Shown: positions 11,807 to 20,580 of the stretch, one piece after another
How the letters are laid out: each line of letters opens with the position of its first letter
Numbering within the stretch: position 1 is the first letter of the stretch
NCBI GenBank assembly: GCA_028875245.1
Contig: JAPPEU010000069.1
Coordinates: 124,001 to 188,000 of the forward strand
Direction: 5' to 3'
DNA from: Chloroflexota bacterium
Lineage (GTDB): Bacteria; Chloroflexota; Anaerolineae; Aggregatilineales; Phototrophicaceae
DNA length: 64,000 nucleotides
The notes under the pieces: model-generated
The model's input: the letters and a program-made list of their open reading frames with translations, nothing else
Told to the model about the DNA's origin: nothing
The model's database searches: none
Program-made: the position numbers and the translations under genes

Positions 11807-12346
11807 TTGCTGGAAGGCATTATGAAGCTCAACTCGAACGCCAAGGATTTGACCGCGATGATGGCTCTGGTCGGCGCCATTGTCCTCGCGCTGAACGCTG
11901 TGATCGCCCCGGAAAGCGGGCGCGATATGTTCCCCTGGTCGCTCGGCCTGCTGGCGGTGGCGATCCTGTTTTGGATTTGGATCCGCCGTGACGCGGCGGC
12001 CGAAGGCTCCGCTGAGGCGGTCAAGGCGGCGCAGGACGCGGCGGATGAGGCGGAAGCGCTGGTGAAACGGCGCGAAGTGCGGCGCGAAACGGAGCAGCCC
12101 GCGGGCAGCGAACATGATGACCTGACCAAGCTCAAAGGCATCGCAGCCGGTTATCAGCGGATTCTGAATGAAGCGGGCATCCACAGTTACGCGGCGCTGG
12201 CGGGCGCTTCCATAGAAGACCTGCGCGCGATCTTCCGCGAGGCGGGGCGCGCCGCCCCGGCCGGCCTGGAAACGATACCGCGGCAAGCTGACTACGCGGC
12301 CAAAGGCGATTGGGAAGGTCTGCGCGCCTTTCAAGACAGCATGTAA
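11807..12346 (+). CDS. Membrane protein with C-terminal helix-hairpin-helix (DUF4332-like) domain
   Basis: Two N-terminal TM helices; DLTKLKGIAAGYQRILNEAGIHSYAALAGASIEDLRAIF HhH signature. Confidence 0.65.
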   Translation: MLEGIMKLNSNAKDLTAMMALVGAIVLALNAVIAPESGRDMFPWSLGLLAVAILFWIWIRRDAAAEGSAEAVKAAQDAADEAEALVKRREVRRETEQPAGSEHDDLTKLKGIAAGYQRILNEAGIHSYAALAGASIEDLRAIFREAGRAAPAGLETIPRQADYAAKGDWEGLRAFQDSM

Positions 12347-12593: not shown

Positions 12594-15515
12594 ATGCCCT
12601 CTGTCGCGCATATCATACGCCGCCGACACAGCCGCAAACGCCGGCGGGTCAAGGGCGCCCGGCGCTCCGCGTTCTGGTCGATTGTCATCATCGGCATTCC
12701 GCTCGCGCTGGCGATGACGCCGCTGCTGGCTGGCCTGGCGCTGTCTCTCTGGCTTTATCTCGCCGCCGCCAGCCACATGCCGCCGCCACAAGCGACCGTC
12801 TTCTTTGATCAAGCGCCGGGCAGGGCACGCTTTCTTGACGCGAGTGGCGAAAGACTCATCCATACCGTCGCCGATCCCTTGGGCGAGAAGCGCCGCTGGC
12901 TGGCGCTGGAGGAGTTGCCGCCGCAGCTGGTCGCGGCGACTGCGCTGGCTGAAGACGGCGGGATCGACTCCGCGTCCGAGCGCTTCGATTTGCCCCAGAC
13001 CCTGATACAAATCATGCGCTATATCTTGGGCTTGCCGCTGAAAATTAAGCCGGGCATCAGCGGCAATCTTATGCGCGATGCCGTTTTGCCGCTGACGAAG
13101 ACGAGCGGCTTGGACGCGCGCCTGCTGGAGATCGTGCTTGTCGCCGAGAGCAGACGCATCCATTCGCCGGAGGCGCTGCTCGAATGGCGGCTGAACAGCG
13201 CTTACTACGGCGGGGACGCCTTTGGCATTGAGGCGGCCGCGCAGGTTTATCTCGGCAAGTCGGCGCTGGATTTGTCGCTGGCGGAGTCGACCCTGTTGGC
13301 TGCCATCGGCGAGGCGCCATCGCTCAATCCGGTCGACGCGGCCCAGAAAGCGCGTGAACGGGGCGCGGACCTGCTGTTCAAAATGCTTGACAGCGGCCTG
13401 ATTGAAAAATCCCAGTTCGATGAAGCGGCGGCGGCCGTCCCCAGCTTCCGAGGGGGCGACGCGCGACAATCCGACATTGCGCCGGCATTCATCAAGTACG
13501 CGCTCGGGCAAGCGGAAACGCTCCTGGGCAAGCGCGGACTTGACGGCGCCCGGCTCATGGCTCGTGGCGGCCTGCGAATCACGACATCGCTCGACCTGGA
13601 CCTGCAGCTGAGCGCGGAGTGCCTTCTGCGCGCGCATTTGCAGCGGCGGGACGCGGCGGTTGCCCTGGATGGTTCACCCTGCTCGCTGGCGCAATCCCTC
13701 GCCACAGCAGAGGAAGGCGCGCCGGATACTGGCGCGCTGGCGCTCATTGATGTCGGCAGCGGGCGGATCCTGAGCTTGGTAGGGGAGGCGCAAGGGGCCC
13801 GCCATCAGCCCGCAATCCTGCTCCAGCCCTTTGTGTACCTGGATGCCTTCCTGCGCCGCGAGTTCACGCCGGCTTCAATAGTTTATGATTTGCCGCGCTC
13901 TTACCCGGGCGCGTCCGCCGACTTGATTTACCGTCCGGCGAATGCGGATGGCTTGTATCGCGGTCCCATGAATCTGCGCGATGCGATGGCGGCCGGGCTC
14001 TTGCCCCCGGCTGTTCAAGTGGCGAGCGTCAGCGGCATTGAGCCGGCGATACATACCGCGAAAGCGCTGGGCTTCAATAGCCTGGCAGCCAGCGGCGGGA
14101 GCCTGGATCTGCTGGAGCGGGGCGCGGCCGTCTCCGTGTTGGATAGCGCCTACGCCTACAGCGTTCTGGCTTCCATGGGCGCGATGCGGGGCATAACGGC
14201 GCCGCCAATCGAGGCTGGCTTCCGCGGACGAGACCCGGTTGCAGTCTTGAAAATCGAAGATGAGACGGGGCAGGTCCTCTGGTCCTACGTCGATGACCCC
14301 AAGGCGAATGAGACCGTGCTCATTCCGCCCAGCGCCGCGTTCATGGTGAATGACATTCTGGCGGATATAGACACGCGGGAAGCTGTTTTGCAGCGGCGGG
14401 AAAGCAGCCTGCGCATTTCTCGCTCGGCGGCCGTCGTCGATGGCTTGAGCGCCGACAAGCGCGATAGCTGGACCCTGGGTTATACGCCCGATCTGGTCCT
14501 GGCGCTGCATACGGGCCGAGCCGACGGCGCGCCACTCGGCCTTCGTGACGGCGACCGCGCCGCTTCCACGCCGGTCTGGCGGGCGCTGATGGAATATGCC
14601 CACGCGCATCTTGAACTGCCGGAGCGAGTTTGGGCCCCGCCCGCCGATATCGAGGAATTTCTGGTTTGCGAGATTTCCGGGTTGCTGCCGGCGACCACAT
14701 CTCATTGCCCGACGCGGCGAGAAGTGGTGCCCGCCGGCTCTGTGATGCAGCGCGATCAGTTTTGGCAAACCGTCGAGATCAACCGGGCGACGGGCCACTT
14801 GGCCACCGTGAATACGCCGGATGAGTTGCGCGAGTCCGTCGCATTCTTTATGCCGCCGGAAGAGTTGATGGACTGGTGGGTGGAAAACGGAAAGCCGCTC
14901 CCGCCAAGCAGCTACAGCACCGATGGCGCGCCGCCCAGCGTCAAACCTGTGCGCCTTACATCGCCGGCGAATTATGCCTATGTCGGCTCTCGGGTGGATA
15001 TCGCCGCCAGCATAGAGCGGGCGGGCGCGCGAACCTGGCAGTTGGAATACGGCGCTGAGGTCAATCCCGACCGATGGATCCCGATCGGCGAACGGCAAAC
15101 TGTCGACGCGGGCGGCGAGATTTCGGCGACATGGAACACAGCCTTGTTCAGCGGCATCTACACCCTGCGCCTTTCGGTTGAATTCGCTGATGGGGATGTG
15201 GCGGCGGATAGCAAGCTGCTCACCTTTGACAATACGCCGCCAGCGGTGAAACTGCGGCTCAGCGAGCCGGCCGCGGAAATTCGATACCCGTCTCAAGGGA
15301 CGCTGTCACTGCTGGCGGATGTCAGCGACAACCTCACCATTGACAGAGTGGAATTCTACCGCGATGACAGTTTGCTGGGCGACGATCGCGACTGGCCCTA
15401 TGGCTACGAGGCTGTACTGGACGGCGCGGGCGAATTTGTATTCAAGGCGCTCGCCTTTGACAAGGTGGGCAATCGAGCCGCGTCCGAGCTGGCGCTATTG
15501 ATAAAGGAAGGCTGA
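12594..15515 (+). CDS. Penicillin-binding protein 1C-like bifunctional transglycosylase/transpeptidase homolog with degenerate catalytic motifs
   Basis: N-terminal TM; GT51-like AYYGGDAFGIEAAAQVYLGKSALDLSLAESTLLA; transpeptidase scaffold QPFVYLDAFLRREFTPASIVYDLP, RDSWTLGYTPDLVLALHTGRADG; C-terminal CEISGLLPATTSHCPTRREVVPAGSVMQRDQFW plus Ig-like domains. Catalytic SxxK, SxN and KTG are not conserved. Confidence 0.85.
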   Translation: MPSVAHIIRRRHSRKRRRVKGARRSAFWSIVIIGIPLALAMTPLLAGLALSLWLYLAAASHMPPPQATVFFDQAPGRARFLDASGERLIHTVADPLGEKRRWLALEELPPQLVAATALAEDGGIDSASERFDLPQTLIQIMRYILGLPLKIKPGISGNLMRDAVLPLTKTSGLDARLLEIVLVAESRRIHSPEALLEWRLNSAYYGGDAFGIEAAAQVYLGKSALDLSLAESTLLAAIGEAPSLNPVDAAQKARERGADLLFKMLDSGLIEKSQFDEAAAAVPSFRGGDARQSDIAPAFIKYALGQAETLLGKRGLDGARLMARGGLRITTSLDLDLQLSAECLLRAHLQRRDAAVALDGSPCSLAQSLATAEEGAPDTGALALIDVGSGRILSLVGEAQGARHQPAILLQPFVYLDAFLRREFTPASIVYDLPRSYPGASADLIYRPANADGLYRGPMNLRDAMAAGLLPPAVQVASVSGIEPAIHTAKALGFNSLAASGGSLDLLERGAAVSVLDSAYAYSVLASMGAMRGITAPPIEAGFRGRDPVAVLKIEDETGQVLWSYVDDPKANETVLIPPSAAFMVNDILADIDTREAVLQRRESSLRISRSAAVVDGLSADKRDSWTLGYTPDLVLALHTGRADGAPLGLRDGDRAASTPVWRALMEYAHAHLELPERVWAPPADIEEFLVCEISGLLPATTSHCPTRREVVPAGSVMQRDQFWQTVEINRATGHLATVNTPDELRESVAFFMPPEELMDWWVENGKPLPPSSYSTDGAPPSVKPVRLTSPANYAYVGSRVDIAASIERAGARTWQLEYGAEVNPDRWIPIGERQTVDAGGEISATWNTALFSGIYTLRLSVEFADGDVAADSKLLTFDNTPPAVKLRLSEPAAEIRYPSQGTLSLLADVSDNLTIDRVEFYRDDSLLGDDRDWPYGYEAVLDGAGEFVFKALAFDKVGNRAASELALLIKEG

Positions 15516-15522
15516 TTCAGGC

Positions 15523-16977
15523 GTGCAACTGAGAATGAAGGCGGACGCGGGCGCGCGGGCAGCTTGGCTTGTGGCCGCGCTGGCTTTGACGCCGGTCGCG
15601 CTATTCGTCTACCTGGGTCATTTCAGCCGCATGATGGGCGATGACTGGGGGCATTTCGCCACCGCTCAACAGCTTGGCGGCGCCGATTATTTCCAGTTTT
15701 GGTGGGCGCAAAGGTATAGCAGTTATACCTATATTCTGCTTCACAAAGCGCTGGCGCCCATGGGCCCGGAAATCATGCCGCAAGTTTTTCCGGCGGCAAT
15801 CATCGCGCTCTGGCTGCTGAGCTTGGCCTGGCTGATCGCTGCCATCCTTCGCATCTTGCAAATCGAGCGCAATCGCCGGCCGGTCAGCGTCGCCTTGGCC
15901 GCACTGCTGCTGACCGCGACCCTCAACTCGCTCTACACCTGGGAGAGCATCTATTGGTATTCCGCCAGCGTACGGTACGCGCTGCCGGTGGCGCTGTTCA
16001 TTCTATACATCGCATTCGCCATAGACGGCGCCAGCCGCGGGCGAACTTCATCCGGGACTGGCGCCGCGGCGCTGGGCGGGGCGGTTCTCTGCTTCCTCAA
16101 CGCGGGCTTCTCCGAGATGCAGCTGATAATCCAACTCGTATTTCTGTCTTGCATGTTGGCGGGCGTTTTCGCTTTCAAGGGGGGGCGGGCGCGCGGACGG
16201 ATGCTGGCGCAGATCGCGGCTGGCTGGGGCGGCACTGTCATCAGCCTGCTCTTGCAATTGACATCCCCCGCGATTTCGACGCGGATGCACGATGGTTCAA
16301 GCCTGGGCGAGCGGGTTCCGCTGCGCTCATTGGGGACGCTCATCGCGGAAACCGTCGAGACCGTCGTCGCATACCTTGGCGACGCGGGAACGATCGCCGG
16401 CTTCTCGCTGATGCTGCTGCTCGGTTTGGCAATGGCGCAGGTCATGGCACAGCCGCAGCAGAGAGGGAAGGCGGAGGCGAAAGGCCTCGCTTTGGCAGCG
16501 TTTCTGGCGTTGGCGAGCGCGCTGTTGGCTCTTATTTTGCCCGTTGCAATCGGCCTGTATTCGATCGGCATTGTTTATCCCCGGCTCATGATATCGTCCG
16601 TCTTTGCGCAAATCATCGCGGGCGTCGTTTTTGGCGCCTGCGTCGGCTGCATGATCAAAAGCAGTTTCCACAATTTAGACGGCGCTGCTGTATGGTATTC
16701 TCCTGTTACAAAGATCGGCGCCGCCGTCGTAGCATGTTACACGCTCGCTGTGGTCATCACGCAAGTCAGCCTGATCCCCGACTTCAGCCTTTACGCCCGC
16801 GAGTGGGACGCGCGCCATCAGCGCATCATTGAATTGCGTGAAAGCGGCGCGAAGAATATAGAAGTGCCGCCTTACACTTTTGACATGACCGCCTTCATCG
16901 CCGCCAATAAAGAACCCATCCGAGGGAGCGACGCCTACTTCTACGGCGTTGAAACAATCGTGGAAACAAGATCGTGA
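15523..16977 (+). CDS. Polytopic membrane protein, GT-C-like paralog 1
   Basis: About 10 predicted TM segments; FSRMMGDDW motif; C-terminal EWDARHQRIIELRESGAKNIEVPPYTF...YFYGVETI. GTG start 8 bp after the PBP stop. Confidence 0.65.
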   Translation: MQLRMKADAGARAAWLVAALALTPVALFVYLGHFSRMMGDDWGHFATAQQLGGADYFQFWWAQRYSSYTYILLHKALAPMGPEIMPQVFPAAIIALWLLSLAWLIAAILRILQIERNRRPVSVALAALLLTATLNSLYTWESIYWYSASVRYALPVALFILYIAFAIDGASRGRTSSGTGAAALGGAVLCFLNAGFSEMQLIIQLVFLSCMLAGVFAFKGGRARGRMLAQIAAGWGGTVISLLLQLTSPAISTRMHDGSSLGERVPLRSLGTLIAETVETVVAYLGDAGTIAGFSLMLLLGLAMAQVMAQPQQRGKAEAKGLALAAFLALASALLALILPVAIGLYSIGIVYPRLMISSVFAQIIAGVVFGACVGCMIKSSFHNLDGAAVWYSPVTKIGAAVVACYTLAVVITQVSLIPDFSLYAREWDARHQRIIELRESGAKNIEVPPYTFDMTAFIAANKEPIRGSDAYFYGVETIVETRS

Positions 16978-17067
16978 CCAAACCGCAGTCCTGTGAAACG
17001 GGCTTAAATTCAGACTCGCTTCGTCTGCTGCATTCTGCTCGCCCAGCTGCGCGAGGGAATATCTGTC

Positions 17068-18705
17068 ATGCGCCCTAATCAAGGCCCTGTGCTCTGGCTT
17101 TTGGCGCTTCTTGCCAGCCTGCCGACGCTGCTCATCGCCTACCTGGGGCAATTCAGCCGGCTGATGGGCGACGACTGGTGTTTCTTTAACAGCGCGCTGC
17201 ATTTGGGCGGAAGAGATTACTTCAGTTTCTGGTTAAACAACTGGCACAGCAGCCTGACCTATATCGCCATACATGACATTCTGGCGCCGCTCGGTCCCGA
17301 ATACATGCCGCCGATTTTTCCTGCGATCATCTTTGGGCTTTGGCTGCTGGGGCTGGTTTGGCTGTTTTTCCTTGTCTTGCGTGGTTTGCAGCTGGATGCG
17401 AACAGACTTCCGGTCGCTTTGATTCTGGCGTTCCTGTCTTTGGCGGCATTTGTGATCGGCGTTTACGATTGGGAGCCGCTCTATTGGTATTCGGCCAGCA
17501 TTCGCCATAGCCTGCCGGTGGGGATATTTCTGTTGGTCTTGGCGCTGTTTTGGGAGGCGGCCTCCCGGCAATGCTCAGGTCGACGGTTGGCGGTCTTGGC
17601 GGCAGCCGGGGCAGCGGCATGTTTCGTCAACGCTGGTTTGTCCCAGCTGCAGACCATCCTGCAGCTAATCTGCTTGACGCTGATGTTGCTTGCAATTCGC
17701 GCTTTAATCGACAGCCCGCGGCGCCGGCCCTGCCTGACGCTGTATTCGGCGGGCTGGGTGGGCAATGCTGCCGGGTTAATCGTTCAATTGGTCTTACCTG
17801 GCAGCGCTACTCGAATGTCGGATATGGGGACGGGCGCAAGGTACGACCAGATTCGCGCGCTTCCTGAACTGCTTGTTGAAACCGTAGAGACATCCGCCGC
17901 GTTCATTGGGCATCAGGGGAATATCGCCGGCTTTACGTTGCTCTTTGCCGCCGGCTTGGTGGCTGCGCTTCTGTTGGTCAAGCCAATTGACGGCGAACCC
18001 GGGCGCAGGCCGGCTGCGGCAAAGGCAGGGGCCGGCGCGCGCTATTGGTCAGCCGCGCTTCTGTTCGGCGCTTTTGCCAGCTTGGCATTGACGCAGGTCG
18101 CGGGCTTGCATTTCTTGGCATCCGCCATTCTCTACATCTGCGCGCTCATTCTACTCGTCGTCCTGGCCGCTCGGCTGGCCGCCGCCACGTCGGATTTCTT
18201 ATCGCGCCGGATATTCCTGGCTGCGTTAGTCGGGTCGGCGCTCGCCTATAGTTCACTTGCGCTTTCGATCGCGGTCGGGCATTTCTCGATTGGAATCATC
18301 TATGAACGGACGCTGACCTTTGCCGCGCTGCTGTCTGTGCTATCGGGGCTGGCTTGGGGCGGCTGCATCGGCTTCCTGCTCCGGCGGCGCTACAGCCGGA
18401 CGCCGGGAGAAGCCCCCTGGCTGCGCGGCGTGATTGGCCTGGGCTCGCTCGTGCTAGCCCTCGCATACCTCAGCATCGTGTCCATGCAGGCCGGGCTGAT
18501 TCCGGATTTCGCAACATACGCGCGGGAGTGGGACGCGCGTCACCAACGTATCGTCCGGTTGCGCGAGGGCGGCGAGCAAGTCATCACGGTGACGCCATAC
18601 AGCTATCACATGACTCAGGCGATTTCGCCGGTTGATCTGGAAATAGTCGGCTGGGATTGCCAGCCCTATTATTACGGTCTGGAAGCCATTACGATGGAGC
18701 CTTAG
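17068..18705 (+). CDS. Polytopic membrane protein, GT-C-like paralog 2
   Basis: FSRLMGDDW motif; APLGPEYMPPIFPAIIFGLW; C-terminal EWDARHQRIVRLREGGEQVITVTPYSY...YYYGLEAI. Confidence 0.65.
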   Translation: MRPNQGPVLWLLALLASLPTLLIAYLGQFSRLMGDDWCFFNSALHLGGRDYFSFWLNNWHSSLTYIAIHDILAPLGPEYMPPIFPAIIFGLWLLGLVWLFFLVLRGLQLDANRLPVALILAFLSLAAFVIGVYDWEPLYWYSASIRHSLPVGIFLLVLALFWEAASRQCSGRRLAVLAAAGAAACFVNAGLSQLQTILQLICLTLMLLAIRALIDSPRRRPCLTLYSAGWVGNAAGLIVQLVLPGSATRMSDMGTGARYDQIRALPELLVETVETSAAFIGHQGNIAGFTLLFAAGLVAALLLVKPIDGEPGRRPAAAKAGAGARYWSAALLFGAFASLALTQVAGLHFLASAILYICALILLVVLAARLAAATSDFLSRRIFLAALVGSALAYSSLALSIAVGHFSIGIIYERTLTFAALLSVLSGLAWGGCIGFLLRRRYSRTPGEAPWLRGVIGLGSLVLALAYLSIVSMQAGLIPDFATYAREWDARHQRIVRLREGGEQVITVTPYSYHMTQAISPVDLEIVGWDCQPYYYGLEAITMEP

Positions 18706-18729
18706 AAACCACAGTTGATGAGTTGAAGC

Positions 18730-20580
18730 ATGCTGCGCAGCCAAATGTTCAAATCAGGACTAAGCGCGTTGCTGGTGGCGCTGGCGCTCGTTCCCGCGCT
18801 GCTGTTTGCCTATAGCGGTCAATTCAGCCGTATGATCGCGGACGACTATTGCCGCATTGAAGCGGGTTTGGCAAATGGGCCTTGGCAAAATGTGGCACAC
18901 TGGCGCAGCATCTGGACCGGATCCTACACAAATTACTTCTTGCACGGCGTCTTTGCGCCCCTGGACTTGCAGATTACGCGGATGCTGCCGGCCGCCACCA
19001 GCTTGCTCTGGCTGATTGGCTTGTTCTGGCTGCTATGGCGCGTCTTTGGATTCGAGGGATGGCGCCGGCACAGGTTATCCGCCGCCCTCATCTGCGCCTC
19101 GCTGCTGCTCGCCACAATGATCGACGCCTTCTATTCGAAGCAGACCTTCTTCCACTACACCGCGCATTTGAGTTATGCCTCGCCGATTGTGCTGTTCACC
19201 ATCTACTTGGCGGCGATTCTTGAAGCAATATGCCGGCTGCGCGCAAGACGAAGTTGGGCGTTAGCGGCGGCGGTCGCCAGCCTTGTCTTCTGCTTCTTGA
19301 ACGCCGGCTTTGCGGAGATGTACCTCGTTGCTCAAGGGACCGCGCTCTTCGTCTTCCTCGTCGCGGCATATCTCTTGGTGCAACATCCGCATCGGCGTCC
19401 GACCCTGCTGCTTCTATCAGCTGGCATGTTTGGCACGGCGACGAGCGCCGTCGTCATGTTGACTGCGCCTGGCGTGATGCTTCGCGCTGCAGACTCGCAC
19501 AGCCTTGTTATGCCCGTGCGCGATCTGCCGGAATTGCTAGATCTGAGCATGGCTCGCGCGGTCGAATACCTAACCGACGCGAATGCCTTTGCCGGCTTTG
19601 CGCTTGTATTTGCGCTTGGCATGGCCGCAGCGCAGATTGCTGGCAAACCGAGCCTGGCTGATACGAGGCCGCTTCGAGCGGGCGTCCCGTCAGCCCCGCT
19701 CTATGCCGGCTTGGCCATACAACTTCTCTTCGTCCCGTTTCTGTGGTCGCATGCAAGTGACAGTCCGCAGTTTTTCGGCCGCTTCAGCTTGCCCTATATG
19801 GCGGTCGTCATACTCAATCTCGCGCTGATAATTGGCTATGGCGCGCTGTTGTGGTGGCGAAACAGACTTAACCAGCAGCTTAGTGAAAATCAGAAACGCC
19901 TGGCGCCGATTGCCGGCCTCGCATTAACTGTGGCCTTCGCCTTATTCATGGCAACCCAGTTGAGAAGCGTTCATATTCGAGCCGAGTTTTTCTTGTATGT
20001 CAGCGCCTTGGTTATACTCGCGAACATATCTGTGCAGTTGTCGCGCGGCCTTCCGCAATCAGTCGCAAAGCGTTGGCGGGAGGTCATAATCGTGTGCTTG
20101 GGGGCGGCTCTGATGTCTTCATTTGTCTTGGCGCTTATCGCATTCTATGCGGTTGGTTTCGTCGGAGCCCGTTACATGGGACCGGTGGCTGTCTTTCAGA
20201 TCTCCGCTGGCTTTGCCTGGGGAGCGCTGGTCGGCTCCGCGCTTGGATGCGTTTTGCGCGCTGCAGGCCCCCGGTCGGCGATAGTTTTGGCTTTCAGGCT
20301 TGCGCCCTTGCTTGTTGTCTTGATGATTGGTATCGGCATCGTCGCAGCCCAAATACGCTGGATTCCGGACCTGCAATTCTTTGCTGACGGATGGGACGAG
20401 CGCCACCAATATATCCTCGAGCAGCGAGACAGCGGTCAGCGTCAAATCGAAATTTGGCCGCTGAGTTACGATTTGGGTAGCGAGTTTCGTAATGTTATGT
20501 CTCCTCGATCTCAAACTTATGAGAACAGCTGCGCCGCGATATACTACGGCGTGGAATCAATAAAACTGGCAGACAGCTAA
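18730..20580 (+). CDS. Polytopic membrane protein, GT-C-like paralog 3
   Basis: FSRMIADDY motif; APLDLQITRMLPAATSLLWLIGLFWLL; C-terminal GWDERHQYILEQRDSGQRQIEIWPLSY...AIYYGVESI. Confidence 0.65.
   Translation: MLRSQMFKSGLSALLVALALVPALLFAYSGQFSRMIADDYCRIEAGLANGPWQNVAHWRSIWTGSYTNYFLHGVFAPLDLQITRMLPAATSLLWLIGLFWLLWRVFGFEGWRRHRLSAALICASLLLATMIDAFYSKQTFFHYTAHLSYASPIVLFTIYLAAILEAICRLRARRSWALAAAVASLVFCFLNAGFAEMYLVAQGTALFVFLVAAYLLVQHPHRRPTLLLLSAGMFGTATSAVVMLTAPGVMLRAADSHSLVMPVRDLPELLDLSMARAVEYLTDANAFAGFALVFALGMAAAQIAGKPSLADTRPLRAGVPSAPLYAGLAIQLLFVPFLWSHASDSPQFFGRFSLPYMAVVILNLALIIGYGALLWWRNRLNQQLSENQKRLAPIAGLALTVAFALFMATQLRSVHIRAEFFLYVSALVILANISVQLSRGLPQSVAKRWREVIIVCLGAALMSSFVLALIAFYAVGFVGARYMGPVAVFQISAGFAWGALVGSALGCVLRAAGPRSAIVLAFRLAPLLVVLMIGIGIVAAQIRWIPDLQFFADGWDERHQYILEQRDSGQRQIEIWPLSYDLGSEFRNVMSPRSQTYENSCAAIYYGVESIKLADS

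Follow-up and report, generated by a model that had tools for sequence, protein, structure and literature searches.

The gene considered in the present work, carried by a 64,000-nucleotide stretch of DNA from a Chloroflexota bacterium (hereafter, the window), encodes a protein that we read, with a probability of about 0.6, as a class A penicillin-binding protein (PBP) with a dead transpeptidase (TP) domain, inactivated in place and retained as a non-catalytic partner of glycan, lipid II or peptidoglycan synthases. The 973-residue unbroken open reading frame, together with the motif strings that an earlier note on this DNA had quoted from it, was borne out; its features are listed in Table 1.

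Class A scaffold and transpeptidase site

The Pfam scan of the window protein retrieved GT51 (61 bits, against a cut-off of 27) and, at the C terminus, an Ig domain (Big_7, the only domain shown there, with no BiPBP_C found), and it did not match the PF00905 transpeptidase domain. Since the intact orthologues from sister families do score for PF00905 (53-56 bits, with GT51 at 189 bits), the missing match is a property of the protein and not of the search. Among the features of class A PBPs, the N-terminal anchor, a GT51 domain above the Pfam cut-off, the fold and the GT51 Glu pair are present; SxxK, SxN, KTG and the GT51 motifs I and II (EDxxF and GSTITQQL) are absent.

Table 1. Features of the PBP gene and of its product; positions are those of the window.
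Feature	Position	Strand	Basis
TP-dead class A PBP pseudoenzyme, 973 aa	12594..15515	+	ORF open, unbroken
N-terminal transmembrane helix, about residues 28-56	12675..12761	+	Sequence; AF2 long helix 4-59
GT51 domain, residues 97-264, degraded	12882..13385	+	PF00912, 61 bits vs 189 in intact orthologues
E120, first GT51 catalytic Glu position, kept; motif I F, H and G lost	12951..12953	+	
GT motif II site, GSTITQQLVKN (intact orthologues) replaced by KPGISGNLMRD	13047..13079	+	Alignment
E179, second GT51 catalytic Glu position, kept	13128..13130	+	
Cys343 and Cys363 (linker), common to intact and inactive orthologues	13620..13682	+	
TP domain, about residues 381-670, predicted catalytically dead	13734..14603	+	No PF00905 match; alignment
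SxxK site, residues 406-415, PAILLQPFVY (S to I408, K to Q411)	13809..13838	+	Alignment
SxN site, residues 468-470, GLL	13995..14003	+	Alignment
KTG site, residues 615-617, V-D-G	14436..14444	+	Alignment; AAVVDG begins at 14427
Cys692/Cys705 pair, C-terminal domain, kept in intact and inactive groups	14667..14708	+	
C-terminal bacterial Ig domain PF17957	15255..15416	+	Pfam

The AF2 model of the protein has a mean pLDDT of 72 and is poor at residues 425-470, a region too uncertain for a real active-site overlay. Foldseek, probed with this model, retrieved A. baumannii PBP1a as the best match with a probability of 1.00, a value also reached by PBP1b and S. aureus PBP2. Moreover, the family profile matches PBP1a (4oon) with an E value of 2.7e-58, and the best PDB matches of the window protein are PBP1a and PBP1b. 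The fold of a class A PBP is thus retained. The label "PBP1C-like" given there turned out to be too specific, since PBP_1a_fam ranks first among the NCBIfam models and every model scores under its cut-off, including those for PBP1C (TIGR02073, 145 bits against 494; NF051885, 160 against 900; NF008414, 77 against 1121).

The anchor, GT51, the TP fold and the domain order are shared with the PBP1A- and PBP1C-type class A PBPs (TIGR02074 and TIGR02073, respectively); compared to these, the window protein has lost its TP residues, save the Gly of KTG, and the glycosyltransferase (GT) motif II. The intact Anaerolineae orthologues (e.g., L040 and L048) have the same domain order and length, 33-40% identity, and the Cys-pair and Ig domains, and in several families they lie at the same locus, with a divergent OmpR-type regulator; unlike the window protein, they keep SxxK, SxN, KTG(T) and all the GT motifs.

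According to the alignment with the intact orthologues, I408 and Q411 occupy the Ser and Lys columns of SxxK, G468 and L470 the Ser and Asn columns of SxN, and V615-D616-G617 those of KTG; furthermore, the 13-residue stretch preceding SxxK in the intact enzymes is deleted. The loss of all the TP motifs claimed earlier therefore holds for SxxK, for SxN and for the K and T of KTG, but not for its Gly, which is the sole TP motif residue left. The motif comparison within the order embedded 98 inactive copies and 19 intact orthologues: SxxK is present in none of the former (0/98), which retain one TP residue out of seven in 79 cases (nearly always the Gly of KTG), none in 12 and two in seven.

The 99 TP-domain columns that are invariant in the intact orthologues were then scored across the inactive clade. 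The non-catalytic ones are kept at a mean of 66%, and the six Ser, Lys, Ser, Asn, Lys and Thr columns at 0-4% (hypergeometric P about 5e-6); the TP loss is targeted at the catalytic columns and is not chance drift. An alternative Ser/Lys pair in the active site, which according to the earlier note would speak against inactivity, is excluded: the TP domain of the inactive clade has no conserved Lys, so that no replacement pair exists, and the only conserved Ser residues (Ser514 and Ser523) are also found in the intact enzymes. As the nucleophile, the general base and KTG are all absent, neither peptidoglycan cross-linking nor beta-lactam acylation is expected. From the sequence, no known mechanism allows an acyl-enzyme to form at the window TP domain, and both transpeptidation and beta-lactam acylation by this protein are excluded on the same grounds.

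What remains of the GT51 domain

The GT half of the window protein appears to be crippled rather than erased. Both catalytic Glu columns are retained (E120 and E179, equivalent to the E. coli PBP1b residues E233 and E290), and the inactive copies keep the first Glu in 88 cases out of 98, the second in 84 (with Asp in five more) and the Asn of motif IV in 97. Motif II, which belongs to the pyrophosphate site, is rewritten: its Lys is replaced by Arg in 82 out of 98 copies, with a new conserved consensus (TGRLVRN), and its two Gln and the Lys of motif III are kept in 0, 6 and 0% of the inactive clade, respectively. It was fair, then, to state that "most" of the GT51 catalytic motifs were lost; "all" would have been wrong.

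In the basal inactive members (L104 type) the two Glu are still there, as is a large part of motif I, and the PF00912 match of L104 and L056 reaches 97-108 bits. The window's genus has additionally lost two motif I residues, the Phe and the Gly, and the match is down to 61 bits in the window protein. Because motif I is degraded there too, GT activity appears unlikely in this genus; other members of the clade may have kept some residual activity.

The two Glu, the motif IV Asn, the scores of L104 and L056 and a motif II that has moved to a new consensus instead of decaying at random would also fit a protein that, in the less-derived members at any rate, is dead in its TP domain only and still works as a GT, so that a class A scaffold would carry a monofunctional enzyme whose motif II is altered. 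We consider this unlikely, given that the Gln pair of motif II and the Lys of motif III are gone in nearly all the members and that the window's genus has undergone the further loss of the motif I residues, with the PF00912 score of the window protein at 61 bits. The carboxylates count also against our preferred reading of a non-catalytic partner, their retention in most copies being unexpected if the GT function had been wholly dropped.

Distribution, origin and selection

Orthologues of full or near-full length were retrieved from nearly all of the 61 relatives searched, the named ones being uncultured Chloroflexi/Anaerolineae MAGs. In the family of the window (f1), 94 out of 97 genomes, from 24 genera, carry a copy (a few as fragments at contig ends), and G033, G105 and G120 gave paralogue-level matches only. 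Within the same order, another family (f4) harbors an inactive copy in five genomes out of five. In f2, f3 and f5-f8, six further families of this order, the orthologues are intact, as are 21 out of the 22 examined class-wide outside the order.

Some further cases were observed. L267 (G307, family f42, outside the order) is a separate, partly degraded orthologue, with SALQ at SxxK, QTG at KTG and damage in GT motifs I-II as well, which suggests that inactivation occurred more than once in the class. In G042 (f7), a 1355-residue class A PBP paralogue (L085:1802-5866) has PGTALQPF in place of PGSxxKPF, GNGYN at SxN and KMGTSD at KTG; it may be another TP-dead PBP. Lastly, the inactive PBP of G112 (L201) is split into two adjacent ORFs of 694 and 438 residues, by either a frameshift or an assembly error.

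A PBP tree was constructed under a PMSF mixture model after removing the motif columns. The inactive copies of f1 and f4 form one clade (99 SH-aLRT; 100/99 in a second tree), which is the large monophyletic group whose existence the earlier note had proposed to check. These data indicate a single origin of the inactive copies, with long branches as a caution. In the RpoB tree f4 groups with f6, with weak support (80/88), and f4 retains the SxxK Ser in four copies out of five and the segment preceding SxxK; both aspects would be in agreement with two independent inactivations, one in f1 and one in f4. This scenario is possible but rather doubtful, since the motif-free tree joins f1 and f4, the f4+f6 grouping is rejected there (p = 2.6e-5), and RpoB itself is compatible with f1+f4 (p = 0.14).

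A divergent OmpR-type response regulator is located upstream of both intact (L040, L044 and L041; f3 and f5) and inactive (f1) copies, and it adjoins about 15 inactive loci. The regulators flanking the two kinds of copies are 46-53% identical, vs about 25-31% for unrelated regulators nearby. The sharing of the same regulator implies that inactivation took place at the locus of the active gene itself. A spare duplicate of an active gene was considered and ruled out by this regulator and by the tree, both of which make the inactive gene an orthologue of the active enzymes of other families.

A regulator immediately upstream of the gene, next to which 10 inactive loci have a GAF/HisKA kinase, also raises the idea of an envelope sensor, in which the dead PBP would bind peptidoglycan or lipid II and signal to the adjacent two-component system. 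A transpeptidase-like fold is used in signalling by the sensor domains of BlaR1/MecR1, which are acylated by beta-lactams at SxxK; the window protein has such a fold in common with them and lacks SxxK. We regard the sensor as quite improbable: the same regulator flanks the intact enzymes listed above, it is absent from the window's genus, and the kinase has no extracytoplasmic Pfam domain.

The neighbourhood of the gene in the window's genus does not name any function: the regulator is gone and genes for DUF6056 membrane proteins follow the PBP. In the window, three tandem DUF6056-like membrane proteins (15523-20580) come directly after it; most members of this genus have one to three of them next to the PBP gene, and the other genera sampled have none there. 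Just upstream, on the same strand, a short protein (11807-12346) is hydrophobic over an N-terminal stretch and resembles a helix-hairpin-helix at its C terminus, with relatives similarly placed in several members of the genus.

Regarding selection, pairwise dN/dS ranges from 0.05 to 0.26 in the inactive clade (14 listed pairs) and from 0.04 to 0.15 in the intact one. The window gene compared with its nearest relative gives 0.218 overall, with 0.256 for the GT, 0.285 for the TP and 0.112 for the Cys domain. From the intact to the inactive group, near-invariant columns go from 26 to 22 in the Cys domain, from 103 to 46 in the TP and from 79 to 31 in the GT, a rough comparison, given the unequal size and depth of the two groups; the C-terminal Cys-pair domain has lost the least conservation of the domains compared. 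The Cys-pair region thus remains, as previously noted, with Cys692/Cys705 conserved in both groups. Moreover, f1 gained fixed residues, such as E508 (95%; Leu in all the intact enzymes) and R642 (90%). The anchor, the overall fold, the Cys pairs and the Ig domain are maintained by purifying selection.

In principle, lost catalytic motifs in a survey in which most genomes are MAGs might denote a pseudogene that is being lost, or a MAG/assembly artefact. This explanation is refuted and retains a negligible probability: the dN/dS values, well below 1, exclude a decaying pseudogene, the length is conserved, the 94 copies in 97 genomes include that of the single-contig genome G117, and the inactive copies form one old clade. 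The view that selection maintains the gene at full length was therefore correct.

Possible role of the protein

The host genome harbors two class A PBPs with all the motifs (L075 and L076), i.e., the catalytically intact second PBP that the earlier note had suggested looking for, as well as other PF00905 proteins and three FtsW/RodA (SEDS) proteins. This, in turn, implies that catalysis by the window protein need not be required for peptidoglycan synthesis.

We can depict the following scenario. The ancestral locus would have held an active class A PBP, otherwise present across the class Anaerolineae; this enzyme would have been inactivated in place, and the pseudoenzyme then kept by one lineage (f1 and f4). 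The TP domain has lost catalysis and the GT domain its substrate phosphate-binding motif, with both catalytic carboxylates kept. The resulting protein would be anchored in the membrane and, as a partner without catalysis, bind glycan, lipid II or the synthases that are active in the same genome, that is, the two intact class A PBPs and the SEDS/class B pairs, which would be positioned or regulated by it. Given the scaffold that is kept, the pattern of selection and the known case of PBPs that matter apart from their TP chemistry, we infer that it probably binds peptidoglycan or lipid II at the membrane, to which it is anchored, and acts either as a regulator or as a subunit of the active synthases. 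A stronger version, in which an old, lineage-wide and fully non-catalytic PBP holds lipid II or glycan in remodelled clefts and is a dedicated subunit controlling the active synthases, is tentative, and we would give it slightly less than even odds.

As for the precedent, the main division role of class B PBPs is the activation of their SEDS glycosyltransferase partner (FtsI/FtsW) and not their own TP chemistry (PMC12539705). As in the role proposed for the window protein, their importance need not rest on TP chemistry; class B activators, however, keep their catalytic residues, whereas the loss in the window's clade is natural, ancient and family-wide. Pseudoenzymes are well known as such; the open-access literature searched yielded no description of a pseudoenzyme family among the class A PBPs, which is weak evidence of absence, and the present case has no described precedent there.

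Possible chemistry-independent roles of PBPs are usually probed by point mutants; in these bacteria the separation of scaffold and catalysis is natural, ancient and family-wide, and the intact orthologues of the sister families at the same locus represent built-in controls. Furthermore, for a whole lineage, the annotation "penicillin-binding protein" and the counts of beta-lactam targets based on it can mislead.
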